Source: Maridesulfovibrio hydrothermalis AM13 = DSM 14728 (GTDB lineage: Bacteria; Desulfobacterota; Desulfovibrionia; Desulfovibrionales; Desulfovibrionaceae). From it: DNA of 64,000 nucleotides. This document shows positions 29,756 to 43,141 of this stretch, one piece after another. Numbering within the stretch: the stretch's first letter is position 1; every line of letters starts with the position of its first letter. The position numbers were made by a program, and so were the translations under genes. The stretch is taken from NCBI RefSeq assembly GCF_000331025.1, contig NC_020055.1, positions 2,186,870-2,250,869 of the forward strand. Direction: 5' to 3'. The notes under the pieces were generated by a model. The model was given only the letters and a program-made list of their open reading frames with translations. It did not search any database and was not told the DNA's origin.

Positions 29756-32014
29756 CTATTCTTCGTCACGCTCAATTCTTTCCAGTAATTGTAATTTTGT
29801 AACCGGTTTGGTCATGTATCCAGTGCAGCCTGCTTCATAAACCGCAGCTTCGGTTCCTTTCATGGTGTTAGCAGATAGTGCTATGATGGGTACTTGTGAG
29901 GTGCTATTTTTAGCTTCCCATTCTCGGATTTTACGGGTGGCTTCGTATCCGTTCATAACGGGCATCTCGATATCCATGAAAACTATATCCGGCTTCATTT
30001 CAATAAAAGCCTTAACACCTTCTTTGCCGTTGGATGCATTTTCCATGCTATGCATAGAGCCTTCAAGGAAATATGCGAAAAGCAGCATGTTACTTTTATT
30101 GTCTTCTACCAGAAGTATTTTTTTAGGAGTAATTGTTTCTGATGCATCGCAGCCACCTCTTTTACCCGAGACAGGAGTGGACATGTCAGAGGGGAAAGCT
30201 GCCGTGAAAATAAACGTGCTTCCGTTGTCAGGACTGCTCTTGATGGTTATATCTCCGCCCATCATAATGCTTAAGCTTTTGCTTATGGCCAGGCCGAGTC
30301 CGGTTCCTTTTCCCTGATTCTTACGGGGGGCTGGTTTACCGGCTTGAGTGAAGCTTTCAAATATCGATTTATGTTGTTCTTCAGGAACACCGATGCCGGT
30401 GTCCCGTACAGAAAATTCCAGCGTGATCATGTTATTTCTGCCGGATACAATCGAGCGCGCATGAACATAAACTCCGCCGTTTGAGGTGAACTTAACGGCA
30501 TTATCAAGCAGGTTGATAAGTACTTGTTTAAGCCGCACCGGATCACCTGTGACGCGGGCGGGAAAGTTGTCAGCAACCTGCATTTCAAACTGGATTCCTT
30601 TTTTATCGGCAGCAATTGCGAACACTTTGAAAGTCTGCTTCAGAACCATGCAAGGGTTAAAGCTGACGCTTTCAAGGTCAAGCAGACCTGCTTCAATTTT
30701 GGATATGTCCAGAATATCGTTAATAAGGTCCAGCAAACCATCTCCGGCATTTTCCAGCAGTTTGATGAAATCTTTCTGGTCTTCACGCGGCCCGGCATTT
30801 TTCAGCAGGTCAGCGGCTCCGAGAATTACATTCATCGGGGTGCGGATTTCATGACTCATGACGGCCAAAAATTGATTTTTTGCCATGTTGGCCGCTATGG
30901 CTTTTTCTTTGGTTCCATCCAATTTTCTGGCAATAGCCCAACCGGAAAAGCCTGCCAGAACTATAATGATCAGAGAGATGAGAATATTAATATCGCGAGT
31001 ATGTTTTATGCCGCCGAGGTAGTCATTCTCAGGGATATATATCCCGATAAGCCACGGCCAGTGGCTGTCTTTGAACGGGGTGAACATTGCACTGTAGCGG
31101 TCGCCATCATGCATAAAAGTTGTAAATACAGGCTCCTCAGGAAGTTTGTCGGGAGGCAGGTTCAATGATTCAAAGGCTAGGCGGCTGATTGAATCCTTAA
31201 GTTCGCTTATTTTACTTAGTCTTATTTTTTTTCTGTCCTGTGAGGCTTGTTTAAGTTCATCAAGGTCCGGAAAAGCAACAACATCCCCGCTGCTGTTTAC
31301 AATGAACGCTTTACCATTTTCTCCAATGGTTAATTTTCTGAGGAAATTCGAAAGACCTTCTATGCTGATATCTACTCCCACAACTCCCTGTAAAACTCCT
31401 TTGTGGTCATATACCGGGCTTGCGGTAGTTATGCCCGGTTTCTTCTCGGTAAAAAAAAGGTAGGGAGCGGTCCAGACAACATCATTATTCATGACTGCAT
31501 CAATAAACCACGGACGCTGTCTGGGATCGTACTTGTCTTCTAAATCCATTTTACCGGCCAGCTTTTTATGCTGAGCTGTGTCCCAGCTGAGACTTACTGT
31601 TCTGTTTCCGCCATTGATTTGGATTATTTTGGTGTAGAAACCATTTTGAACTTTTGAATCGGAACGGGAAGCCATAAAAAATTCACCCTTTATATTTCCG
31701 TAATACACACTGGTGAATTGCTGGTAGAGTGATAACTGCTGGTAAAAATAGCCGATCATTGATTTAGGGTTCTCGCTACTGACAATGTTGCTGTCAGCTA
31801 GAAAACGGGTAAGTTCAGCTGCTTTTTCTGCTGGGCGCAGATAGTTTTCAGATTTATCAAGAGTATATGAAGATATATTGACCATGATATCGCGGGCAAG
31901 GCCAGTGAGCGCATCGCGGGAGGTCAGGGATGGTGGAATGATGATAACAGCTGCAAAAATAATAGTCAGCGAAATAAAGCATACGGCGAGCCACCATTTT
32001 TTAAGAAAGTTCAT
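29756..32014 (-). CDS. hybrid sensor histidine kinase (dCache-HisKA-HATPase-REC)
   Basis: A 752-aa membrane kinase. Helix 1 (about 8-28) precedes a large extracytoplasmic dCache-like domain (about 35-335; RQRPWFIDAVMNNDVVWTAP, ASPVYDHKGVLQGVVGVDIS), a second helix (about 345-365), HisKA with AVMSHEIRTPMN (phospho-acceptor His), an HATPase with NLLDNAVKFTSNGG, DTGIGVPEEQ and GKGTGLGLAISKSL, and a C-terminal receiver (ILLVEDNKSN, FMDIEMPVMNGYEATRKI with the Asp acceptor). No HAMP or DNA-binding output is present, so a partner must receive the signal. Cache domains bind small metabolites; the ligand is unknown. Confidence 0.93.
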   Translation of the reverse strand: MNFLKKWWLAVCFISLTIIFAAVIIIPPSLTSRDALTGLARDIMVNISSYTLDKSENYLRPAEKAAELTRFLADSNIVSSENPKSMIGYFYQQLSLYQQFTSVYYGNIKGEFFMASRSDSKVQNGFYTKIIQINGGNRTVSLSWDTAQHKKLAGKMDLEDKYDPRQRPWFIDAVMNNDVVWTAPYLFFTEKKPGITTASPVYDHKGVLQGVVGVDISIEGLSNFLRKLTIGENGKAFIVNSSGDVVAFPDLDELKQASQDRKKIRLSKISELKDSISRLAFESLNLPPDKLPEEPVFTTFMHDGDRYSAMFTPFKDSHWPWLIGIYIPENDYLGGIKHTRDINILISLIIIVLAGFSGWAIARKLDGTKEKAIAANMAKNQFLAVMSHEIRTPMNVILGAADLLKNAGPREDQKDFIKLLENAGDGLLDLINDILDISKIEAGLLDLESVSFNPCMVLKQTFKVFAIAADKKGIQFEMQVADNFPARVTGDPVRLKQVLINLLDNAVKFTSNGGVYVHARSIVSGRNNMITLEFSVRDTGIGVPEEQHKSIFESFTQAGKPAPRKNQGKGTGLGLAISKSLSIMMGGDITIKSSPDNGSTFIFTAAFPSDMSTPVSGKRGGCDASETITPKKILLVEDNKSNMLLFAYFLEGSMHSMENASNGKEGVKAFIEMKPDIVFMDIEMPVMNGYEATRKIREWEAKNSTSQVPIIALSANTMKGTEAAVYEAGCTGYMTKPVTKLQLLERIERDEE

Positions 32015-32263: not shown

Positions 32264-32560
32264 TTAGAAACCAGCTTTGCTTTCAACTCTTGATTCGCGG
32301 TAACCGAGGTGATCGCATCTTTTTTTCATGGCGTATGTTGCTGCCAGTGCTGCATTAACCAGCAGAATAATGCCGATAACCGGTGAGAACCAGTTCACGT
32401 CCAGCCACCAGTCACCGGCATGATCATATATTGTCCGGATGAAAACTCCGGGCCAGCTGCGGGACATGCCCATGTACTGGTAAAATAAAATAGGTGTTGC
32501 GCCAAGATAGGTTATTGCAACAAAGCTTACGAAAAAATGTTTGAACATGTTCTTAAGCAT
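32264..32560 (-). CDS. small membrane protein of unknown function (last gene of yeiH operon)
   Basis: A 98-aa protein with two predicted membrane helices (KHFFVSFVAITYLGATPILF and GIILLVNAALAATYAM) and a basic C-terminal tail. The ATG at 32560 is used: GGAGG of the ribosome site overlaps the end of the preceding gene, whose stop lies 5 nt upstream. I do not recognise the family. Coupling to four other genes under one sigma-54 promoter suggests it serves the YeiH-type transporter or the same stress response. Confidence 0.72.
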   Translation of the reverse strand: MLKNMFKHFFVSFVAITYLGATPILFYQYMGMSRSWPGVFIRTIYDHAGDWWLDVNWFSPVIGIILLVNAALAATYAMKKRCDHLGYRESRVESKAGF

Positions 32561-32565
32561 ATTTA

Positions 32566-33132
32566 TTAGCCTCCGTAAAAGTGCCAGCCGATAATAAGGG
32601 CGGTAACGAAAAGTATTTCCAGCATAGTCAGTTTGAACATAAAACTGCAAATTCTGCGCTGGGTCGGGTTCATTGTAAGCATTATTTTGTCCATGAAAAA
32701 ACGCCAGAATCTGTGTTTGACTGAGTTTGACTGATGCAGCCGATAGTATTCCCGCAGGCTGGGCAGCCAGTATTGGACAGTTTTCTGCGCATCCTCGGTG
32801 GTGAATTTAGAATCAGCCACAGGTGTAAAGTCGTAACGTAGAGAAGTGCTGCCGCCGTTGTCATCCATGCGTGCTGAAATGGATAAGCCTGTTTCAGGAA
32901 AGTCTGCTTTAAATATATTCTGCTCAAAGCTGAGTATCGGTTCAGATAGAAATTTTTTATCTACCAGCATGTCTTCTACCGGAGTGCCGGCTTCTGTTTT
33001 TTTATCAAGATGCCAGTGTGGATTAAGACGCATCAAAGTTTTAGCCTTGAGCGATTTCCAGAACTTTGGATTCCACTGTAGGTTTGTATCCATCCAGACC
33101 GGGGTTTGAATATTATCGGCAATTATTGTCAT
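32566..33132 (-). CDS. unrecognised protein with C-terminal membrane anchor
   Basis: A 188-aa protein. Most of it is soluble and hydrophilic, with many tryptophans (MRLNPHWHLDKK, KTVQYWLPSLREYYRLH). A basic stretch, MNPTQRRICSFMFK, precedes a single C-terminal helix (LTMLEILFVTALIIGWHF). The ATG at 33132 overlaps the preceding universal-stress gene by 4 nt (ATGA), a sign of translational coupling. No known domain is recognisable by eye; it may be a cytoplasmic domain tethered to the membrane by its tail. Confidence 0.7.
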   Translation of the reverse strand: MTIIADNIQTPVWMDTNLQWNPKFWKSLKAKTLMRLNPHWHLDKKTEAGTPVEDMLVDKKFLSEPILSFEQNIFKADFPETGLSISARMDDNGGSTSLRYDFTPVADSKFTTEDAQKTVQYWLPSLREYYRLHQSNSVKHRFWRFFMDKIMLTMNPTQRRICSFMFKLTMLEILFVTALIIGWHFYGG

Positions 33133-33572
33133 GGAGCCACCACTACCGGACATTGGATTTTAGTATGAAGTTTTTTATTTTCAAAGCGGTCCCGAAAGCC
33201 GGGAGCTTGTTCTTTCTGCCATGCACCCATGATTATAAGGTCAGCTTCCAGTTCCTCTGCGGTTCTGGCGAGCACTTCATCGAGTTTACCGCCTCTGCTG
33301 ATGAAGTTTACTTCTTTTCCGGAAAGCTCGATTTTAAGCCTGTCCCAGACTGCTCCTATTTCCTTGGCGATTTCTTCTGCCACGTAGGAGCCGAATTTAT
33401 TACGGGTGGTTGAAGTATTCAGCCAGTCATCGCAGGTCATATCACCCCAGGCATCGTTAATGATTGAAAGAACTGTGATTTTAGCACTGTATTCTTCTGC
33501 CCATTGAGCGGCAAGTTTTTCGGCTCTTTGAGCACCGGGTGTTCCGTGAGTGGCAAGTAATATATGTTTCAT
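33129..33572 (-). CDS. universal stress protein (UspA family)
   Basis: A 147-aa protein with the Usp alpha/beta fold: MKHILLATHGTPGAQRAEKL at the N-terminus and EELEADLIIMGAWQKEQ followed by IQCPVVVAP at the end. The ATP-binding G2xG9xG(S/T) motif is degenerate (GAWQKEQAPGFRDRF), so it may not bind ATP. ATG 33572 is chosen because it begins the conserved strand; the upstream extension has no family similarity. It sits in the yeiH operon, where a Usp could regulate the transporter. Confidence 0.85.
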   Translation of the reverse strand: MKHILLATHGTPGAQRAEKLAAQWAEEYSAKITVLSIINDAWGDMTCDDWLNTSTTRNKFGSYVAEEIAKEIGAVWDRLKIELSGKEVNFISRGGKLDEVLARTAEELEADLIIMGAWQKEQAPGFRDRFENKKLHTKIQCPVVVAP

Positions 33573-33660
33573 GGCGATTGTTCTCGAAAAATGTTTTCCG
33601 CTTGACGGAAGGCTGTCCCGCAGACAGCCTTCCGCCGAGCGAAAGGGGGGTGTGGTTATG

Positions 33661-33848: not shown

Positions 33849-35489
33849 TTACTTAAGAACAACGTCTTTGACGAAGTACATGACCACGATGAAGGACAGT
33901 GTTGCTTTGGTCACACCGGATATGCCGCCCATGACGAGTGGCCATCCGCCGGCCTGCTTAAGCGACTTACCGGTAATCTGCATACCCAGACCGATCAGCC
34001 CGTAAGCAAAGAACCAGATCATGGCATCGGTCAGAGCAACGATTGTTTTGGATTTTTTATGAACCTGCTTTACCGCATGCTCAAGGGCAGATTTCACATC
34101 GGTGGACATGATGATCTCTCCGCCTTTATGTCTGGCGAGGATTGATTCAAGGCCGGACATACGTTCGCGGGCAACTGAGTCGAAGAGTTCTTTGTTTTCA
34201 CGGGTTTCAAAATCACCTGCGATCTGATGCTGTTTAACCAGATCTTCAAAAGCAGCGGATTCTTCCTGAGTCAGACCTTTAATTCCTGTTTTCCAGGCAT
34301 CTGCGATAACGGTCTGCTCTTCGGGAGCAATTTCAGTACGCTGGCTGTAGCTGAAGTCGAGATATTTGCCTTTGTAGTGTCCTGCGGGGGAGAACAGGCC
34401 CATAGATGAGCAGAAGAACAGGAGCAGAAAACCAAGGATGAAGATGGGGAATTTGTCGATAACAACTTCTTTGAAGGTCAGCTTCTGTCCGGAAGCCTTA
34501 CCGAACCATGTCGCCAGGACCAGCACGATAACAGGCAGGAACAGAACGCGGGTGATGTTGAAAATTTCACCCACTTTGAGTGTTTTGATATCAACTGCGT
34601 TAAAAGCAAGACAGGCTGCCGCAACCTGTGCGGAGTTAAGGATACCTGTTCCAGCCCATGCTCCGAATTGAGTTGCGTTCATTCCGGCCAGTTTACCAAT
34701 AGTTGGGAAGGCAAACATACACAGAATACCGAAGCCCAGAATGGTTCCGATGGTGTAAGCCATTTCAGAACATTTAGCTTTGACAACCGGGGCGCAGGCA
34801 ACTGTTGCAGATACGCCGCAAACTCCCATACCGGCAGAGAGAACGCCAGTCATGGTTTTTGGCTGGTTAAATAATTTGCCGAGGAACAGAACGAAAAAGA
34901 CTGTTCCCAGAACGAAGAAACCGATGAGCCAGACTGAAACCATGCCCAGCTTGGCCAGTTCAGCAAAAGAGTAACGTGCGCCAAGCAGGATAACACCCAT
35001 TTTCAAAACGAAACGGGCGGTTTTTACGCCTGAAGCAGCAAACTTAGGTATACCTGAGCTGTTGGTGATCACGATACCGACAAGAATTCCCAGAACAACA
35101 TAGTTCAGGTTGAGAACCTTATGAATCTTAAAACCCAGTACGGGGACAAGAGACGAACTCATAATCTTGACCATAGGCTCAGCGAACCAGCGGATGCCCA
35201 TTGCCAAGGCAATGATGAACAGAATTCCGGGAATGGTTTCCAGAACAAAGGTGTCAAAGTTTGTGGGTTTGTTGTTCCAGCGTACTTTACGCAGAACTGC
35301 TGTGGCTAGACCCAGTCCGCCGCCGATAAAGCTTAAGGTCTCCATAAGGTCCATAGCCTTATGAACCTTGAGTGTAGACAGTAAATCTGTAAGTGCCCCT
35401 GATGCTACCAGTACTCCATACATCAGCAGCATTGCGCTGATGATCCATACCGGGGTGTTATTGGGACGTCCGTATCCGGCTTGTGCCAT
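33849..35489 (-). CDS. long YeiH/UPF0324-family anion transporter
   Basis: A 546-aa inner-membrane protein of the putative sulfate-exporter (Cons_hypoth698) family: hallmarks include VLNLNYVVLGILVGIVITNS, KMGVILLGARYSF and SAGMGVCGVSATVACAPVVK. About ten helices are present. It is longer than the usual 340-360 aa because a hydrophilic insert of about 100 residues (roughly 375-475, with IAPEEQTVIADAWKTGIKG and KGLTQEESAAFEDLV) splits the last helices. ATG 35489 is chosen because GGAGG lies 7 nt upstream. Transport of sulfate, sulfite or organosulfonates has been suggested for relatives, but this is not proven. Confidence 0.85.
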   Translation of the reverse strand: MAQAGYGRPNNTPVWIISAMLLMYGVLVASGALTDLLSTLKVHKAMDLMETLSFIGGGLGLATAVLRKVRWNNKPTNFDTFVLETIPGILFIIALAMGIRWFAEPMVKIMSSSLVPVLGFKIHKVLNLNYVVLGILVGIVITNSSGIPKFAASGVKTARFVLKMGVILLGARYSFAELAKLGMVSVWLIGFFVLGTVFFVLFLGKLFNQPKTMTGVLSAGMGVCGVSATVACAPVVKAKCSEMAYTIGTILGFGILCMFAFPTIGKLAGMNATQFGAWAGTGILNSAQVAAACLAFNAVDIKTLKVGEIFNITRVLFLPVIVLVLATWFGKASGQKLTFKEVVIDKFPIFILGFLLLFFCSSMGLFSPAGHYKGKYLDFSYSQRTEIAPEEQTVIADAWKTGIKGLTQEESAAFEDLVKQHQIAGDFETRENKELFDSVARERMSGLESILARHKGGEIIMSTDVKSALEHAVKQVHKKSKTIVALTDAMIWFFAYGLIGLGMQITGKSLKQAGGWPLVMGGISGVTKATLSFIVVMYFVKDVVLK

Positions 35490-35535
35490 TTGAATCCTCC
35501 TTTCATTGTTTTGCAAAATGACTAAGTTCTATAAG

Positions 35536-35550
35536 GCAATGTGTGTGCCA
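35536..35550 (-). promoter_or_regulatory. sigma-54 promoter of the yeiH operon
   Basis: The minus strand reads TGGCAC-ACACA-TTGC, matching the RpoN consensus TGGCAC-N5-TTGC with no mismatch. The -24 element is at 35545-35550 and the -12 element at 35536-35539, about 47 nt before the yeiH ATG. Three activator-like palindromes lie upstream and a sigma-54 activator gene is 2.6 kb away. Confidence 0.88.
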
Positions 35551-35610
35551 AGTTGTTTGCTGGTAACCATCAGTAATTACACATGTTTTTAGGGGGTGCT
35601 TTTTGGAGGG

Positions 35611-35713
35611 TGTAAACTCCGGTTTACAGCTGGTAAATCCGGGTATACATTTGTGTGAAAATAAGTCTCTGATTTGTCATGATCTGATGGAATGATGTAA
35701 GTTCCAGTTTACG
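35611..35713. promoter_or_regulatory. three enhancer-like palindromes between yeiH and the sensor kinase
   Basis: Site 1, TGTAAAC-tccg-GTTTACA (35611-35628), is a perfect inverted repeat. Site 3, TGTAAGTTCCAGTTTACG (35696-35713), matches it at 14 of 18 positions. Site 2, GTAAATCCGGGTATAC (35633-35648), matches more loosely. They lie 60-165 nt upstream of the sigma-54 promoter, the usual range for enhancers bound by NtrC-type regulators. The adjacent response regulator is the obvious candidate binder. Confidence 0.75.
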
Positions 35714-35761
35714 CCTTCATTAACTAATAGCTTGTGAAGAGTTCATTTCGCCGGAGATTAC

Positions 35762-38176
35762 ATGACTAGCTTCAAACCTAAAAATATACAGGCCAAGTTC
35801 CTGATCGGTATCGGGGCTATTGTCTTGACTATCGGAATCTTTTTTGCGTCAGGGATGTATTTTCATCTTAGTTCACTGCTGGATTCGCAGGTTAAAGGTA
35901 AGGCTGATCTTATATTTAATCAGGTTGGGGCGGTGCAGTCTTATGTGCGTGAAGTTTTGCGCCCCGAGGTTCGCGCGGTCATTGCTGAAGATGAATTTAT
36001 TATTGAGGCTATGTCTTCCTCCTATATTTCACGGGCAATTATGCAGCGTGTTGCTTCGGATGATAAAGAGTATCACTATCGTCGTGTTGCCGAGAATGCA
36101 CGTAATCCCCTTTTTGAAATGAATGCTGAAGAGAGCAGGCTGCTGGGTTATTTCCGGAAACATCCTGATGAAAAATACTGGGAAGGGTATAGAAAGCTTG
36201 GCGGGGTAGAATATTTCGTGAAAGCCCGTCCAGTTGTTTTTAAAAAATCCTGCCTGACATGTCACGGCGTAAGTAAAGATGCCCCTGCCGTTCTGCTGAG
36301 TCGTTACGGAGATAAGCGGGGCTTCGGGCATAAAGAGAATTCTGTCGGCGGTTTGGTAATTGTCGGTGTGCCGGTGGAAAAGGCTGTGGCCGGCATTAAC
36401 AAAACTACTGCAAGGTATGCCATTTTATATGGCTGCGTTATGATCTTTTTGTTTGTCCTGATTCAGTTCTTTTTCAATAGACTGGTCATGGGAAATATTC
36501 GAAACCTGAGTAGGAAATTTCACACTCTGCTTAAGGATGAAGATAAATCCGAAGTGCTCGATAAAATCGTGCATGGCGATGAAATTGAAGAGGTTGCGCA
36601 AGGCATTGAGGAGCTTGGAGAACACTTGCATCAGGCGCAGGAACAGCTCCGCGAGCACTCTGAAAATATGGAGCAGATGGTCGAGGTCCGAACAGATGAA
36701 CTCAAAAAAGAAGTTCACGAAAGAAGGGCTGATGTCGATTTGTTTGTGCGTTTGCTGGACGGGTTCAATAAAAGTTTCACCCGTAGAGAAATGTGGCAGT
36801 TTGCACTGCCTTTGCTGGTGCAGAGATTTAATGCTGAAAGCGCAACCTTTATATGTATGGTTGCTTCGCATAATCATTTTTCATGGCCTGAGTCTACGCC
36901 TAAACCGGCGTTACCTGAAAACTGGCGGGAAATTCTAACAGAGGTGAAACCTGTTTTTGAAAAAAACAGAGGCTTTATACCCGTGGCTGCCTCGGAGAAT
37001 TTAACCGAAGGGATTTTCTGTCTGGTCTGGGATGAAAGTGTGGAAATCAGCAGGCAGGATCAGGATGTTTTGCGGGCAATCGGGCAGCAGATGGGAATCG
37101 CTATGGAGAATATAAATGCTCTTAACAATCTGCTGCATCAAAAAGATGTATTGCAGGCTATTGTTGAAGGCATGGGTGATCCGGTTCTTTTTGTGGACGG
37201 TAATTGTAATATCATCCTCGCAAATGAAGCTGCCAGAATTTTGGCCGGATCATTTTCCGGCGTTCCATCCGATGTAGAATGCGCAGGTCTTTTTCTTGAA
37301 GGTGCGGTACTTGAAAGGTGTTCCTCTGAATCGGGTCTTAAGTGCCATGACAATTTGCCTTGCAAAATTGCTTTGGATGACGGACGCTCCTTTTCAGTCA
37401 GTGTTTTTCCTATTGAAGAATCCGGAGAAAAGCAGGGCCGCAGGGTTGTTTGTATCAGGGATATTACGCAGGAAAAGCAGATGCTGGTTAGAATGCAGCA
37501 GAGTGAAAAACTGGCGACTGTCGGTAAACTTGCCGCCGGCCTTGCTCATGAAATAAATAATCCTCTCGGTGTTATTAAATGTTACGGTGAACTCCTTAAG
37601 GACGGACTGGCCAACCCGGATGTTCTGGCGGATTTAGATATTATTCTTAAACATGCGTCGCAGGCTCAGAATGTTTTGCAGGATTTGCTTAATTTTGCCC
37701 GTCCAAGGCCCATTGAATTGGCGGAGCTTGATCTGGCCGGAGCCGTTGCCAACGCTGTTGGAGTTTTCAGGGTTCAGGCAGAAAAGAATGGAGTGCAGGT
37801 GTTGTATTTTGTCGATGAGAATCTTCCTTCCATCACAACTAATGCGCAGGCCATCGAACAGATACTTGCCAACCTGCTTAATAACGGCCTTGATGCAGTA
37901 AAGCCCGGAAGCGGGGTGATCGATATCAGTTTGTACAGTTCAGGAGAAGAGGAAGTTTTGCTTAGAGTTGCAGATAATGGCTCGGGGCTTGACCGTGAGA
38001 GTATCGGCAATATTTTTGATCCTTTCTTTACTACTAAAGAAGTTGGTAAAGGGACCGGTCTGGGGCTTGCCGTTGTTTACGGTCTGGTAAAAGATTTAGG
38101 CGGCAGGATTGAGGTCGAGAATGATAACGGCGCAGTTTTTTCCGTTTACCTTCCGGCAGAGAAGGGAGGGCAGTAA
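35762..38176 (+). CDS. c-type-heme (DUF3365) sensor histidine kinase
   Basis: An 804-aa membrane kinase. Helix 1 (about 12-35) is followed by a periplasmic DUF3365 (Tll0287-like) domain with a covalent heme motif CLTCHG (C164, C167, H168), helix 2 (about 220-240), a HAMP-like linker with coiled coil (about 240-325), a GAF-like region, a PAS domain (about 455-570), HisKA with AAGLAHEINNPLG (phospho-acceptor His near 595) and an HATPase with GSGLDRESIGNIF and GKGTGLGLAVVYG. The heme likely reports redox state or a small gas such as O2, NO or sulfide. Its stop abuts the ATG of the response regulator, so they form a cognate pair. Confidence 0.92.
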   Translation: MTSFKPKNIQAKFLIGIGAIVLTIGIFFASGMYFHLSSLLDSQVKGKADLIFNQVGAVQSYVREVLRPEVRAVIAEDEFIIEAMSSSYISRAIMQRVASDDKEYHYRRVAENARNPLFEMNAEESRLLGYFRKHPDEKYWEGYRKLGGVEYFVKARPVVFKKSCLTCHGVSKDAPAVLLSRYGDKRGFGHKENSVGGLVIVGVPVEKAVAGINKTTARYAILYGCVMIFLFVLIQFFFNRLVMGNIRNLSRKFHTLLKDEDKSEVLDKIVHGDEIEEVAQGIEELGEHLHQAQEQLREHSENMEQMVEVRTDELKKEVHERRADVDLFVRLLDGFNKSFTRREMWQFALPLLVQRFNAESATFICMVASHNHFSWPESTPKPALPENWREILTEVKPVFEKNRGFIPVAASENLTEGIFCLVWDESVEISRQDQDVLRAIGQQMGIAMENINALNNLLHQKDVLQAIVEGMGDPVLFVDGNCNIILANEAARILAGSFSGVPSDVECAGLFLEGAVLERCSSESGLKCHDNLPCKIALDDGRSFSVSVFPIEESGEKQGRRVVCIRDITQEKQMLVRMQQSEKLATVGKLAAGLAHEINNPLGVIKCYGELLKDGLANPDVLADLDIILKHASQAQNVLQDLLNFARPRPIELAELDLAGAVANAVGVFRVQAEKNGVQVLYFVDENLPSITTNAQAIEQILANLLNNGLDAVKPGSGVIDISLYSSGEEEVLLRVADNGSGLDRESIGNIFDPFFTTKEVGKGTGLGLAVVYGLVKDLGGRIEVENDNGAVFSVYLPAEKGGQ

Positions 38177-39586
38177 ATGAAAAATCCTGTAGGCATACTT
38201 ATCGTAGATGACGAAATTGATTTTGCAACTGGAATTGCAAGGCTTATTCAGCGTTTTTTTCCTCATGAAGAAATAATGACTGTGAATTCCGGTATTGAAG
38301 CTCTGAACATTTTGGATAAAAAACCGTTTGGCCTGCTGCTTACTGATTTGAATATGCCGGGTATGGATGGTGCTGAGCTGCTTAAAAAAGCTATTGCCAA
38401 TCGTCCTGATCTCGGTGTGGTTATTTTGACTGCTTTCGGTACAGTCTCCACTGCGGTAAAGGCCCTGAAACTTGGGGCTTACGATTTTATCACTAAACCT
38501 GTTGAACCTGAAGCACTGCGACTGGTGGTTGAGCGGGGCATTGAAAGGTGTAATTTACTCGGGGAAAACAGCAGGCTTAAAAAAGAGCTTTCCGAAAAGC
38601 GCGGGCGCGGTGAACTAATTGGTGACTGCCTTGCCATGCGCCGTTTGCAGGAACGCATTTCAGCGGTGGCGGAGTCGGATTATACAGTGCTTATCAGGGG
38701 AGAATCCGGAACCGGAAAGGAGCTTGTGGCCCGCACAATTCATCAACTCAGCAACCGTTCCAGCGGTCCGCTCATGACCGTCAATTGTCCGGCAATTTCA
38801 GATCAGTTACTTGAAAGTGAACTCTTCGGGCATGTGAAAGGGGCTTTTACCGGTGCAAACCGTACGCGCAAGGGTATTTTTGTTAACGCCAACAAAGGGA
38901 CACTGCTGCTTGATGAAATCGGGGATATCACTTCGGGAATTCAGACCAAGCTGCTTAGAGTGTTGCAGGAAGGGGAAGTGCGTCCTGTCGGTTCAAGTAA
39001 TAATGTAAAGGTTGATGTGCGTATAATAGCATCAACAAACAGGAATCTTGAAGCTAAGGTCGCGGACCGCAGTTTCAGAAGTGATCTGTATTATCGCTTG
39101 AACGTGCTGACTTTGCACGTGCCGACTCTTGGTGAGCGCAAGGAGGATATTCCTCTTTTGGCCCGTCATTTTTTGAAAGCAACCTGCAAGGAGACTGGAG
39201 TGCCTGCTAAAGAATTATCCACTGACGCAGTTGTTTACCTTTCCATGCGCAAATGGCCCGGCAATATCAGGGAGCTTCAGAATTTTATTCGCAGGTTGAC
39301 TGTTTTTTCCCCCGCGGACGTAATTGAAATGGCGCAGATACGCATGGTTGAATCAATTGACGGTTCCCCGCAGGATATTGTCCGTTCAATTTCTCCATAC
39401 AAGGAAGCTAAAGAGAAGCTGGTGGATGACTTTACGCGGACTTACACCACTGAGCTTCTTGGCAACTACAAAGGTAATGTCTCCGAGGCCGCAAGGCAGA
39501 GTGGACTTTCGCGTATGGCTTTGCTCAAGATACTTAAACGGCTTGATATTGATGCTGATGAATTCAGACATGGCGGCGCAGGTTAG
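38177..39586 (+). CDS. NtrC-type sigma-54-dependent response regulator
   Basis: A 469-aa protein. Receiver domain (1-120) with phospho-acceptor Asp57 in LLTDLNMPGMDG; AAA+ domain (about 145-385) with Walker A GESGTGKE (175-182), the sigma-54-contacting GAFTGA loop (222-227), Walker B LLLDEIGD and NIRELQNF; C-terminal Fis-type HTH (GNVSEAARQSGLSRMALLKI). It follows the sensor kinase directly and lies near a sigma-54 promoter with palindromic upstream sites, so it is predicted to activate the yeiH operon, and possibly its own. Confidence 0.95.
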   Translation: MKNPVGILIVDDEIDFATGIARLIQRFFPHEEIMTVNSGIEALNILDKKPFGLLLTDLNMPGMDGAELLKKAIANRPDLGVVILTAFGTVSTAVKALKLGAYDFITKPVEPEALRLVVERGIERCNLLGENSRLKKELSEKRGRGELIGDCLAMRRLQERISAVAESDYTVLIRGESGTGKELVARTIHQLSNRSSGPLMTVNCPAISDQLLESELFGHVKGAFTGANRTRKGIFVNANKGTLLLDEIGDITSGIQTKLLRVLQEGEVRPVGSSNNVKVDVRIIASTNRNLEAKVADRSFRSDLYYRLNVLTLHVPTLGERKEDIPLLARHFLKATCKETGVPAKELSTDAVVYLSMRKWPGNIRELQNFIRRLTVFSPADVIEMAQIRMVESIDGSPQDIVRSISPYKEAKEKLVDDFTRTYTTELLGNYKGNVSEAARQSGLSRMALLKILKRLDIDADEFRHGGAG

Positions 39587-39618: not shown

Positions 39619-42066
39619 ATGGATGTTGTGAAGGTCTTAAGGTACTGGGCTGAAAATATTTTCACCCCGCGCTCTATGCTGCAACGTAAGTATGAATCTT
39701 TTAAGGCTCTGCTGGAATACGATTCCAAAGCCCTTAACCTGATCGCTGATCTTGAAGAAATATTTTATGGTGAAAAGCTGGCTGACCGTCAACAGACCGT
39801 AGCTCTGCATGCGGAGCTTGCTGATGCCGTCGAAGGGATGATCCGGCAGCTTCTTGTTATGAACCCTTTGAATTATCATGACCTTCCGGATAATTTCCAG
39901 CGCATTAATACTGCCGCACGTACTTCCGTTATTCCGCAATTATCTGAATCAAAAGTTCCGTACATCATATCATTGGCAGAGGCCGGTGAACAGCCGCATT
40001 TAGCTGGAGGAAAAGGGGCTAATCTGGGTAAGGTTTTTAACCTTGACGGTATAAATGTGCCCACCGGTTTTGTCATTACTGCCAACGCTTTTCATTACTT
40101 TATAGAATATAACGGTCTTAGAGCTGAACTTGACAAAAGGCTTTGTAAGATGGAGGCGGGAAAGCGCGACCTGCTGGCTGTTCTGACCCTTGAGATTCAG
40201 GAGTTGATCCTTGCCGGTGAGCTGCCTCCTGATCTGGTTGATGAAATGGAGCAGGCCCGTTGTCAATATCTGGAGGATGAAACGATTCTGGCAGTACGTT
40301 CCAGTGCACTTGCTGAGGATAGTGAAATTTCATTTGCCGGACAGTATGCCAGTGAACTGAATATTGCAGTTGATGATGTAGTTGATGCATATAAGCGGGT
40401 TCTGGCTGGTAAATATTGCCCCCGCGCGGTTTCTTATCGAATTGTCAACGGGCTTACTGACAGTGATACTGCAATGGCTGTTCTGATCATTCCCATGATC
40501 GATGCCCGGAGTGCCGGAGTTATTTATTCCATTGATCCGGATTGCCTGAACCGCGATTCTATAGGAATTTACGGGGTCAGCGGGCTGGGAAATTCTTTGG
40601 TGGACGGCAGCGTTGTGCCTGCCAAAGCATCACTTCATCGGGAGCAGACCCCTCGTTTAGTAAGTGAATGCGCTTTTGATTCGGCGAGCTTGCCGGACGA
40701 AAAGATGCTGGTGGAACTTGCTCGCTGCGCTTTGCGGCTGGAGGAGTATTTCGGGTGTCCGCAGGATGTGGAGTGGGCTATCGATCAGGGCGGAGAATTT
40801 CATATTTTACAAACGCGTCCGTTGCAGCAGGAGCATGATGTTGCGACCGTAACACATGGTCCGATTCCTGCCGTACCTTATATTGATGGACTTGAACGGG
40901 CTTCTGCGGGGGCCGGATGCGGGGAGATTTATTTCGCGCGTACCGGAGAAGAGATTGCACGTATTCCAGAGGGATGCGTGATTATTACCCCGACCCTTAA
41001 ACCTGCGCTGCTGACTTTTGCCGGAAATATCAACGCGGTTCTTTCGGCTACGGGAAGTCGGGCCAGTCATTTTGCCTCGGTTGCGCGTGAAATGGGTATA
41101 CCTGTGCTTGTCGGTGATGTTATGGAGCGATTCAAGCAGGGGCAGCTTGTTACCGTTGACGGCATGGAAGGGGCTGTTTTTGAAGGATGTGTTGAGGATG
41201 TTTTGACCAGATCGTTCAGCACTGCTGAGGTTTCCTCGCGTGTGCTTGATCTGTACAAAGATATTATTCCTCATACGGTCAAGCTAACTTTGACTGACCC
41301 GCAGGGGGATAATTTTTCAGCACAAGGGTGTAGATCTTTACATGATCTCGTGCGGTTTTGTCATGAAAAATCAATAAATGAAATGTTCTCACTGGTTGAT
41401 AAAAGAGGTCTCGGCATGGGGAGGGCAAAGCAGTTAGAAACCGGATTGCCGCTGGTCCTTTATGTAATCGATTTGGATCGTGGACTGTCTTCGGGAACAG
41501 AAAAGAAAAAAATAGTCAGGCCGGATGATATAAGTTCTACCCCCATGCAGGCATTATGGCTCGGTCTTGCTGATAAAAGGGTTCCGTGGTCCGAAGAGCT
41601 TACCCATGTGGACTGGGAGGAGTTTGATCGCATGTCTGCCGGAATTTTTAATAAAAATTCTAAAATCTTGGCAAGCTATGGAATTCTGGCAAAAGATTAC
41701 CTGCATCTGCTGGTCCGCTTCGGATACCATCTTTCGGAAGTGGATTCCCTGTGCGGCGATGATGCGATGCAGAATTATATAAAATTTCGCTTTAAGGGCG
41801 GTGGTGCAGGTATTGATAATAGGCTGCTCCGGCTTCAGTTTATAAGTCAGGTTTTAAATCATTACGGTTTTGAAATTAAAATTCGCGGAGACATGCTTGA
41901 TGCTGTCAGTGCCCGTCTTGACCGTTTTGAAACTGAAAGGCAGCTTTCTGTTCTCGGATATTTGATGGCTGTTACCCGTCTTATGGATATGCGCATGGTT
42001 GATAATGCTCAGGTTGATGATGAAGTAAGCTCTTTTATTAAAGATGCGGAGAATATTGATGGCTGA
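39619..42066 (+). CDS. PEP-synthase-like protein without the PEP-binding barrel
   Basis: An 815-aa protein. Residues 1-110 are unfamiliar. About 115-405 is a pyruvate-phosphate-dikinase/PEP-synthase ATP-binding domain (LAGGKGANLGKVF, AVRSSALAEDSEISFAGQY with R227, VEWAIDQGGEFHILQTRP). About 430-500 is the swivelling phosphohistidine domain with SATGSRASHFASVAREMGIP; H484 is the phospho-acceptor by homology. The usual C-terminal PEP/pyruvate TIM-barrel is missing; the last 280 residues are an unrecognised region. The gene is 32 nt after the response regulator and overlaps the next gene by 8 nt. It may phosphorylate a target other than pyruvate, but that is inference. Confidence 0.8.
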   Translation: MDVVKVLRYWAENIFTPRSMLQRKYESFKALLEYDSKALNLIADLEEIFYGEKLADRQQTVALHAELADAVEGMIRQLLVMNPLNYHDLPDNFQRINTAARTSVIPQLSESKVPYIISLAEAGEQPHLAGGKGANLGKVFNLDGINVPTGFVITANAFHYFIEYNGLRAELDKRLCKMEAGKRDLLAVLTLEIQELILAGELPPDLVDEMEQARCQYLEDETILAVRSSALAEDSEISFAGQYASELNIAVDDVVDAYKRVLAGKYCPRAVSYRIVNGLTDSDTAMAVLIIPMIDARSAGVIYSIDPDCLNRDSIGIYGVSGLGNSLVDGSVVPAKASLHREQTPRLVSECAFDSASLPDEKMLVELARCALRLEEYFGCPQDVEWAIDQGGEFHILQTRPLQQEHDVATVTHGPIPAVPYIDGLERASAGAGCGEIYFARTGEEIARIPEGCVIITPTLKPALLTFAGNINAVLSATGSRASHFASVAREMGIPVLVGDVMERFKQGQLVTVDGMEGAVFEGCVEDVLTRSFSTAEVSSRVLDLYKDIIPHTVKLTLTDPQGDNFSAQGCRSLHDLVRFCHEKSINEMFSLVDKRGLGMGRAKQLETGLPLVLYVIDLDRGLSSGTEKKKIVRPDDISSTPMQALWLGLADKRVPWSEELTHVDWEEFDRMSAGIFNKNSKILASYGILAKDYLHLLVRFGYHLSEVDSLCGDDAMQNYIKFRFKGGGAGIDNRLLRLQFISQVLNHYGFEIKIRGDMLDAVSARLDRFETERQLSVLGYLMAVTRLMDMRMVDNAQVDDEVSSFIKDAENIDG

Positions 42067-43141
42067 GCAAAGCGGCAATGTTGCATATATTCTTACATGG
42101 GTCACCGATCAGCTTGCAGTCGGCTGCGCCCCTATGAGCCATGTTCAGCTTGCGTCTATTAAAAAGCAGGGTGTGGATGTAATACTCAATCTTTGCGGTG
42201 AATTTTGCGACCTCCATGACATTGAACGTGATGCGGGATTTGATGTTCATTACATGCCGCTTGAAGATGAAGAAGCTCCTGATCTGATTGAGCTTGAGAG
42301 AGCCTTGGCGTGGATGGATGAGGCCATCTATCTGGGCAAGAAAGTTCTGATTCATTGCCGACACGGCATCGGGCGCACTGGAACAGTACTTAATGCCTAC
42401 CTGTTGCGGCGGGGGCTGGGGCATAAACTTGCCGGAAAGAAGATGAAAAAACTTCGTTCCAAGCCGGCGAATTTTGTTCAGTGGTGGACGGTGCGCAAAT
42501 ATGGACGGCAAAGCGGAAAACTAACTGCGCGTGCTCCTTCACTTGAGTTTAAGCGGCTGGTTGATCTTGCTCCTTTTTTTAATGACTACTACAAACTTGT
42601 GGAAGAGGTTGAGAGCAGAGCCGCCGAAACAGCAGGGCGCAAGCTCTGCGGTCTTGATGATGACCATTGCTGCCGGACTCCGGTCAGCCTGACTTTGGTT
42701 GAGGCGTTGCATGTCAGCCACAGCATTAATCTTGAACTTCGGCAGGATGTCCGCCTCAAGGTTATTGAGAAGGCGGTAGAAACGGCCCGTGCTGAACGGC
42801 GCACGGTAAGTGATTTGAACTCTGAGGGTAAAACGAAGTACTGTCTTTCCAGAGCCGGAGCTGAATGTCCTTTGCTCGAAAATGGAAAATGTCTTTTATT
42901 TGACTACCGCCCCCTGCAATGCCGGGCTTTTGGTCTGGATATTTCAAGAGATGGCAGGCTCTGGCATGATACATTGATTCCTGCTCTGGATAAAGTTTCA
43001 CTGGAAGTCTGGTTTGCCTACACTGGGATGCTTCATGATGAAACCATGCCCTTGTTTTCTCTGCCGGATGTGGTGTCGGGTAAGTTCATTGAGCAGCTTT
43101 TCAAGCTTATGATGACTTTTGGAATTGATGATAATTTGTAA
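42059..43141 (+). CDS. dual-specificity phosphatase fused to a YkgJ-type Cys cluster
   Basis: A 360-aa protein. The N-terminal half is a cysteine-phosphatase of the DSP/PTP type with the P-loop IHCRHGIGRTG (nucleophile about C100, R106). A linker rich in basic residues follows, then a YkgJ-type zinc/iron-chelating domain (CGLDDDHCCRTP at about 205 and CPLLENGKCLLFDYRPLQC at about 285). ATG 42059 is used because GGAG lies 8 nt upstream; ATG 42044 has no site. It is last in an operon with a sensor kinase, regulator and PEP-synthase-like protein, which suggests it reverses a phosphorylation in that pathway. Confidence 0.82.
   Translation: MAEQSGNVAYILTWVTDQLAVGCAPMSHVQLASIKKQGVDVILNLCGEFCDLHDIERDAGFDVHYMPLEDEEAPDLIELERALAWMDEAIYLGKKVLIHCRHGIGRTGTVLNAYLLRRGLGHKLAGKKMKKLRSKPANFVQWWTVRKYGRQSGKLTARAPSLEFKRLVDLAPFFNDYYKLVEEVESRAAETAGRKLCGLDDDHCCRTPVSLTLVEALHVSHSINLELRQDVRLKVIEKAVETARAERRTVSDLNSEGKTKYCLSRAGAECPLLENGKCLLFDYRPLQCRAFGLDISRDGRLWHDTLIPALDKVSLEVWFAYTGMLHDETMPLFSLPDVVSGKFIEQLFKLMMTFGIDDNL

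Follow-up and report, generated by a model that had tools for sequence, protein, structure and literature searches.

Genes and sites at the locus

The window analysed here, the whole 64-kb stretch of the Maridesulfovibrio hydrothermalis AM13 genome, carries a divergent locus. A YeiH-family transporter operon is encoded on the minus strand and a heme-domain sensor kinase and an NtrC-type response regulator on the plus strand, with a sigma-54 promoter element and three palindromes between them. An earlier note on this DNA had read these parts as one circuit, and this wiring was supported by relatives, which keep the order of the genes, the sequence of the sites and their distance from the promoter. 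Since parts, sites and spacing are conserved, it is likely that the heme-domain kinase, the regulator and the sigma-54 promoter form a working circuit that controls the yeiH-family operon. The features are as follows (aa, amino acids).

32264-32560, minus strand: small membrane protein of about 98 aa, fourth gene of the operon, start chosen by eye; two hydrophobic stretches
32566-33132, minus strand: 188-aa protein with a predicted SRPBCC/START-like fold and a C-terminal membrane helix (model and Foldseek); 8/8 orthologue loci
33129-33590, minus strand: universal stress protein (Usp), encoded by the second gene of the operon, its start picked by eye; PF00582; 8/8 family orthologue loci
33849-35489, minus strand: long YeiH-like transporter, 546 aa from the ATG; Pfam match to PF03601
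35536-35550, minus strand: sigma-54 promoter element TGGCACACACATTGC, a perfect TGGCAC-N5-TTGC; conserved in relatives
35611-35628, no strand: palindrome 1, a perfect TGTAAAC-N4-GTTTACA (0/14 mismatches), with 60 bp between its edge and the sigma-54 element
35632-35649, no strand: palindrome 2, 3/14 mismatches, in register with palindrome 1 at a distance of 21 bp
35696-35713, no strand: palindrome 3, 3/14 mismatches, 48 bp 5' of the kinase gene
35762-38176, plus strand: sensor histidine kinase; its Tll0287/DUF3365 (sCache_heme) domain has a membrane stretch on either side; PF11845, HisKA, HATPase
38177-39586, plus strand: NtrC-type response regulator with receiver domain, AAA+ domain, GAFTGA and Walker A; Pfam/NCBIfam and motifs

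The perfect promoter described in the earlier note was found at 35536-35550 on the minus strand. TGGCACACACATTGC was the sole perfect sigma-54 match in the window and one of only 8 in the 3.7-Mb genome, and it has the GG-N10-GC spacing of a -24/-12 element (35550-35536). The gap between the element and the transporter ATG (35489) was 46 nt, so that the 47 nt given before was correct to within one base. The program-made open reading frame of the transporter opens further upstream, at TTG 35516; AAAGGAGG lies directly 5' of the ATG at 35489, and the Met-Ala encoded there was invariant across 9 aligned orthologues.

The three palindromes of the earlier note were located at 35611-35713, that is 60, 81 and 145 bp upstream of the sigma-54 element, and the coordinates confirmed that promoter, sites and regulators all lie within 4 kb. 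When the 272-bp intergenic region was shuffled with its dinucleotides preserved, at least three such palindromes were found in 0 of 5000 shuffles (two in 1, one in 147). In 44 of 2000 shuffles of the region, a perfect palindrome of the 7-4-7 form arose, whatever its letters.

The adjacent DUF3365 kinase, with its c-type-heme motif, and the GAFTGA activator, also claimed before, were both recovered by Pfam and by motifs. The kinase matched PF11845 with an E-value of 2.9e-33 and contained the H-box and the ATPase boxes. Its CxxCH motif (CLTCH at residue 164, 36251-36265) lies between the hydrophobic stretches 8-37 and 215-246, and its sensor domain matched Tll0287 (PDB 5b82). C164, C167 and H168 were invariant in 16 aligned sensor domains, in which no cysteine outside the CxxCH motif was conserved. 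The regulator combines an AAA+ domain carrying GAFTGA and Walker A with a receiver domain, as expected for an activator of sigma-54 promoters. Two further DUF3365 domains were seen in the same genome, at G000:C2:1166545-1167063 (L112) and at 3642217-3642549 (L113).

As for the target, the earlier note had named only yeiH and called its product an anion exporter. The operon also codes for a Usp and for two membrane proteins, one SRPBCC-like and one small. The transporter is a relative of PF03601 (Cons_hypoth698; 159 bits, cut-off 24.5); however, it scored 88.7 bits against NCBIfam TIGR00698, the family of YeiH proper, whose cut-off is 232.6, and its role as an anion exporter is therefore presumptive. 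A hydrophilic insert of about 110 residues (about 370-480) precedes its last two predicted membrane spans. Its structure model was too weak for use (mean predicted local distance difference test score, pLDDT, 62.7), and no PDB relative was found by sequence at an E-value of 0.01. The 188-aa protein, which belonged to no Pfam or NCBIfam family, has a hydrophobic C-terminus and gave a model with a pLDDT of 90.2. Its first PDB matches in Foldseek were mostly lachrymatory factor synthase, AHSA1-like and Bet v 1-like entries, and they were weak but consistent (best E-value 4.8e-4, template modelling score about 0.4). On this weak but consistent signal the protein may be called SRPBCC-like, the family name being read from the titles of the PDB matches. 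The fourth gene, likewise without a Pfam or NCBIfam family, was present in 8/8 orthologue loci, in two of these at 77-81 bits only.

Conservation of genes, sites and spacing

The long transporter was found in 9 of 149 genomes of the family Desulfovibrionaceae, the window's own included, and the other eight copies were 73-84% identical. At all eight other loci, the kinase and regulator genes were divergent from the transporter gene, and the Usp and 188-aa genes lay downstream of it. A collection of 53 named loci, in which close relatives of the locus were from Pseudodesulfovibrio and Salidesulfovibrio, contributed five further Desulfovibrionaceae loci, giving a set of 14 distinct loci together with the window and the eight family loci. 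The sigma-54 element kept 10/10 letters in 12 of these and 9/10 in the other two. Had the palindromes not been conserved in relatives, the earlier note would have given up its reading; they were kept, the best palindrome having at least 12/14 consensus letters in 13 of the 14 loci and 11/14 in one (L091). The distance from the best palindrome to the sigma-54 element was 52 bp in two loci, 60 bp in the window and 63-64 bp in 11. The pair of a palindrome with at least 12/14 letters and a sigma-54 element with at least 9/10, at 50-66 bp, was present in 13/14 loci and absent from all of 200 shuffled sets.

A motif-blind scan was performed on 17 loci, including three with a short YeiH, for any 7-bp inverted repeat over 11 spacers and 120 offsets (1320 settings). 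Its optimum was a spacer of 4 and an offset of 64 bp, with a z of 5.9, and at least 6/7 pairs were formed there in 8/17 loci. All but 3 of the 136 pairs of upstream regions were less than 60% identical in ungapped comparison.

The loci with a short YeiH showed a similar arrangement. Kinase and regulator were nearby in 9/10 of the loci L043-L052. A relative of one short transporter was found at an E-value of at most 1e-90 in 32 of 288 family genomes, and 30 short-YeiH loci were returned, several of them from genomes that coincide with those of L043-L052. A kinase lay within the short flanks of 22/30. A looser pair (12/14 palindrome, 8/10 sigma-54-like element) was present in 21/30, at a distance of 61-65 bp in 16, 52 bp in 1 and 84-86 bp in 4, the steps being about one helical turn; 100 shuffled sets gave a mean of 0.04 loci and a maximum of 1. 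In four of the 21 (L138, L141, L142 and L144) the kinase is downstream and not divergent.

More widely, the module was found across sulfate reducers and in genomes named Desulfocapsa. In the named collection, 31 loci had a transporter of more than 60% identity and at least 3.5 kb of upstream sequence, and 27 of them carried a divergent kinase relative; PF11845 itself was verified for two of the named loci, in the L058 and L064 kinases. When 16 Desulfobulbaceae-type loci were aligned, two palindromic blocks about 33 bp apart were followed by GGAA-N6-TTGC, and the flanks had diverged; there were single-locus exceptions to this pattern, for example L068. In seven loci of 42-50% identity (L094, L096-L100 and L105) the Usp was present and the divergent kinase relative was absent. 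Their titles name Nitrospirae, Nitrospiria, Gammaproteobacteria, Muproteobacteria or Sulfuricaulis, and an eighth such locus, L104, was cut short.

Within the genome, the wider consensus TGYWAAC-N4-GTTWRCA had one perfect occurrence, which is at this locus, and 8 further places with one mismatch, compared with 4 for the reversed-pattern control. A larger regulon was considered and rejected, none of the 8 one-mismatch places having a strong sigma-54 element positioned as at yeiH. At one of these places (L108, G000:C2:2047558-2047670), two palindrome-like sites 95 bp apart were seen ahead of a flagellin-like gene, so named by eye, with an 8/10 sigma-54-like element about 258 bp from a palindrome-like site.

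Signal, cargo and competing explanations

The circuit is not unprecedented, since a mapped case of the same kind, by analogy of arrangement, is DVU0540/DVU0539 acting on DVU0542-0545 in Desulfovibrio vulgaris. According to passages of PMC10102598, DVU0540-DVU0539 is divergent from DVU0542-0545, which encodes a putative transporter of the sulfate exporter family together with two Usps and a membrane protein of 133 aa. DVU0539 was mapped in 2011 by DNA affinity purification on a chip (DAP-chip), gel shift verified its site, and in an Escherichia coli reporter the DVU0542 promoter was activated by it (passages of PMC3333781). DVU0539 is also listed in PMC4641369. For a comparison with the DVU0539/DVU0946 motif, the text of that paper gives three motif groups whose TGT and ACA half sites are 9, 11 or 12 bp apart; the window palindrome reads TGT-N12-ACA. 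Like the window, the D. vulgaris system has a sensor kinase and a GAFTGA regulator divergent from a sulfate-exporter-family transporter and Usp operon. The window, however, has a long transporter, one Usp and an SRPBCC-like membrane protein instead of the two Usps and the 133-aa protein, and the likeness rests on gene order. Three short-YeiH loci (L049, L050 and L052) resemble the DVU0542-0545 cluster, with a transporter, a 131-132-aa protein, a heme-domain kinase relative and Usp-like reading frames, those of L049 and L052 being recognised by eye.

Salmonella provides a second comparison. There, in passages of PMC12880088, sulfite induces YeiH and resistance to sulfite requires it, and the Discussion states that its transport substrate is unproven. 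As in the window, a YeiH-kind transporter gene lies beside its own regulator gene with divergent promoters; however, the Salmonella regulator YeiE is LysR-type and binds sulfite, whereas the window has an NtrC-type regulator and a transporter below the TIGR00698 cut-off. The sensor side is described in the main text of a preprint (PMC12889525), in which DUF3365 is a Cache domain with covalent heme, heme sensors of this kind are common in bacteria of this sort, and a signalling member binds NO (nitric oxide) tightly, releases it slowly and forms no stable O2 complex. The window kinase resembles these sCache_heme proteins in joining DUF3365 and CxxCH to a signalling output. The studied member lacks an axial cysteine, as the window-type domains lack a conserved one outside CxxCH; it is a Pseudomonas HAMP protein, whereas the window protein is a histidine kinase.

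The word 'heme' was missing from the main text of PMC4641369 and from the passages of PMC3333781 and PMC10102598, and the words 'Desulfovibrio', 'serine' and 'Pkinase' from the main text of PMC12889525. No target operon for any DUF3365 heme sensor was found described in the parts of the literature consulted, and searches for YeiH with Desulfovibrio or sulfate reducers returned nothing on this circuit, judged by title and abstract. In these published parts, no description was seen of the heme input or of the long transporter with its SRPBCC-like membrane partner.

The circuit would most probably operate as follows. A membrane histidine kinase carries a Cache domain in the periplasm, which, with heme c bound covalently, would read a small reactive ligand or the redox state, and the kinase would phosphorylate the NtrC-type regulator encoded directly behind it. 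The regulator would then bind the palindromes, which lie 60-165 bp ahead of the promoter, and, via looping, open the sigma-54 promoter of the divergent operon of transporter, Usp, SRPBCC-like and small membrane proteins. The parts, with their conservation and spacing, are visible in the sequence, whereas we infer heme attachment, phosphotransfer, binding, looping and activation from family knowledge. Since 4 kb hold the promoter, the sites, the regulator and the target, all of them conserved, a simple reporter could serve to read out the ligand.

Sulfate reducers produce sulfite continually, and NO and nitrite block siroheme sulfite reductase; in a sulfate reducer with the enzyme blocked, sulfite would therefore accumulate. 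A dsrA match above its curated cut-off was present in the genome, which fits a sulfate reducer. Based on this block, on the sulfite resistance conferred by Salmonella YeiH and on NO binding by a DUF3365 protein, an NO-type signal with export of sulfite or a similar oxyanion was put forward as a tentative guess, and a rather doubtful one.

Several observations weigh against the wiring. Loose palindrome matches in the window numbered 4 versus 2.86 expected, and places with at most two mismatches in the genome numbered 11 versus 16 for the reversed pattern, so that neither count was enriched. The wider consensus was derived from loci of the tested set, which makes the counts partly circular (the motif-blind scan is free of this), and the related loci are not independent, their kinship inflating such tests. 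Among the other genomes sampled from the window's genus, 0 of 8 had the long transporter, and the locus has thus probably been gained or lost sporadically. The divergent kinase was missing in 4 of the 31 named loci; a related kinase and regulator lie at another place in the locus in L058 and L059, but are not present in that form in L060 and L086. The pair was missing in 9/30 short-YeiH loci, 6 of these being from one genus without a kinase in the short flank. In D. vulgaris, passages of PMC3333781 and PMC10102598 tie the regulator to lactate use and report a molybdate phenotype in the kinase mutant and none in the DVU0539 mutant. If the loose counts, none of them above chance or control, were all there was, chance palindromes next to an ordinary promoter would suffice; however, the 0/5000 local shuffles and the conservation in relatives contradict this, and we regard it as extremely unlikely. 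The case is carried by the clustering next to the promoter and by conservation, not by loose-match counts. With palindrome 3 only 48 bp 5' of the kinase start, the palindromes might instead mainly control the kinase-regulator operon, or be bound by another regulator while the NtrC-type protein acts elsewhere. The conserved site is nevertheless the one at a fixed spacing to the yeiH sigma-54 element, and the genome offered no convincing alternative target, which makes such an arrangement improbable.

With the heme-kinase wiring of the yeiH operon retained, signal and cargo may still differ from NO and sulfite. The heme may sense sulfur species (sulfite, sulfide, polysulfide) or redox potential, and the operon would then answer its own substrate. 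Salmonella YeiH is sulfite-induced and sulfite-protective (passages of PMC12880088), and the module is distributed across sulfate reducers and genomes with the name Desulfocapsa. Moreover, the sixth heme site may accept several ligands because no distal cysteine is conserved in the 16 domains. The slow NO release and the lack of a stable O2 complex in the studied signalling member argue the other way (main text of PMC12889525); 'sulfite' and 'sulfide' are missing from that main text, and sulfur ligands were apparently not tried there. A sulfur or redox signal is quite possible, falling only a little short of an even chance. Another anion stress (molybdate, chlorate or a carboxylate) might also be the one answered, as suggested for the D. 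vulgaris counterpart, where DVU0540 and DVU0542 were important under molybdate (passages of PMC10102598) and DVU0539 was linked to lactate genes (passages of PMC3333781). The position of the window transporter below the YeiH-proper cut-off is in line with this; however, further genes of the D. vulgaris cluster proved detrimental under molybdate, their role being called unclear by the authors (passages of PMC10102598), and we consider this explanation unlikely.

A possible added kinase layer in relatives, and neighbouring genes

To survey the downstream cluster, we used the 25 loci with more than 60% identity and at least 6.5 kb of downstream sequence. The Usp was present in 24/25, the 188-aa-type protein in 24/25, a Ser/Thr-kinase relative in 23/25, a metallophosphoesterase in 19/25 and a relative of a PF11845-Pkinase fusion in 17/25. 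The stand-alone kinase of the L064 type was compared in 26 loci; its catalytic loop HxD[L/I]KPEN was readable in 24 and its DFG in 26. The fusion (L064:15916-17619) belongs to the yeiH cluster of Desulfobulbaceae-type genomes, where a Ser/Thr kinase that looks intact and a metallophosphoesterase are close by; it had relatives in 18 further loci, and CxxCH was kept in 19/19. In the fusions, the catalytic-loop Asn was replaced by Ile or Val in 17/17 readable cases and DFG by DMG in 13/13 readable cases. Judged from these residues, the PF11845-Pkinase fusion is probably a heme-domain pseudokinase. In Desulfobulbaceae-type loci, a 91-aa gene (L064:8701-8976), hydrophobic by eye, separates yeiH from the sigma-54-like element, and many loci have relatives of this gene.

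A limited literature search found no description of a bacterial heme-sensing pseudokinase. If the added layer of the relatives is real, it would mean that such proteins exist in bacteria; in the published parts consulted, likewise, nothing was seen on a cluster that, as in Desulfobulbaceae-type relatives, combines a heme-domain pseudokinase with a Ser/Thr kinase and a phosphatase. We speculated that anion efflux in these relatives is heme-gated in two layers, one being sigma-54 transcription under a heme-sensor kinase. In the other, a heme-sensor pseudokinase would steer a phosphatase and a Ser/Thr kinase whose targets are the transporter, the Usp or the SRPBCC-like partner, so that sulfite would be exported once a nitrogen-oxide-type poison halts sulfite reductase. 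This scheme is speculative and, in our estimate, distinctly unlikely to hold as a whole. The window carries the transcription layer only.

A more distant kinase relative was also found downstream in 10 of the 14 Desulfovibrionaceae loci, the window not among them; L055, one of the four without it, ends soon after. This relative may not be an active kinase, because neither the catalytic loop nor the DFG was readable in any of the four checked.

Two genes lie 3' of the regulator gene, encoding a PPDK_N/PEP-utilizer protein (39619-42066, plus strand) and a dual-specificity phosphatase-like protein (42044-43141, plus strand); relatives of these above 90 bits were found in none of the 18 loci searched. 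On the other side, downstream of the transporter operon, the window encodes a hybrid histidine kinase with a dCache domain (29756-32014, minus strand), and a kinase-like gene occupies this position in several relatives.

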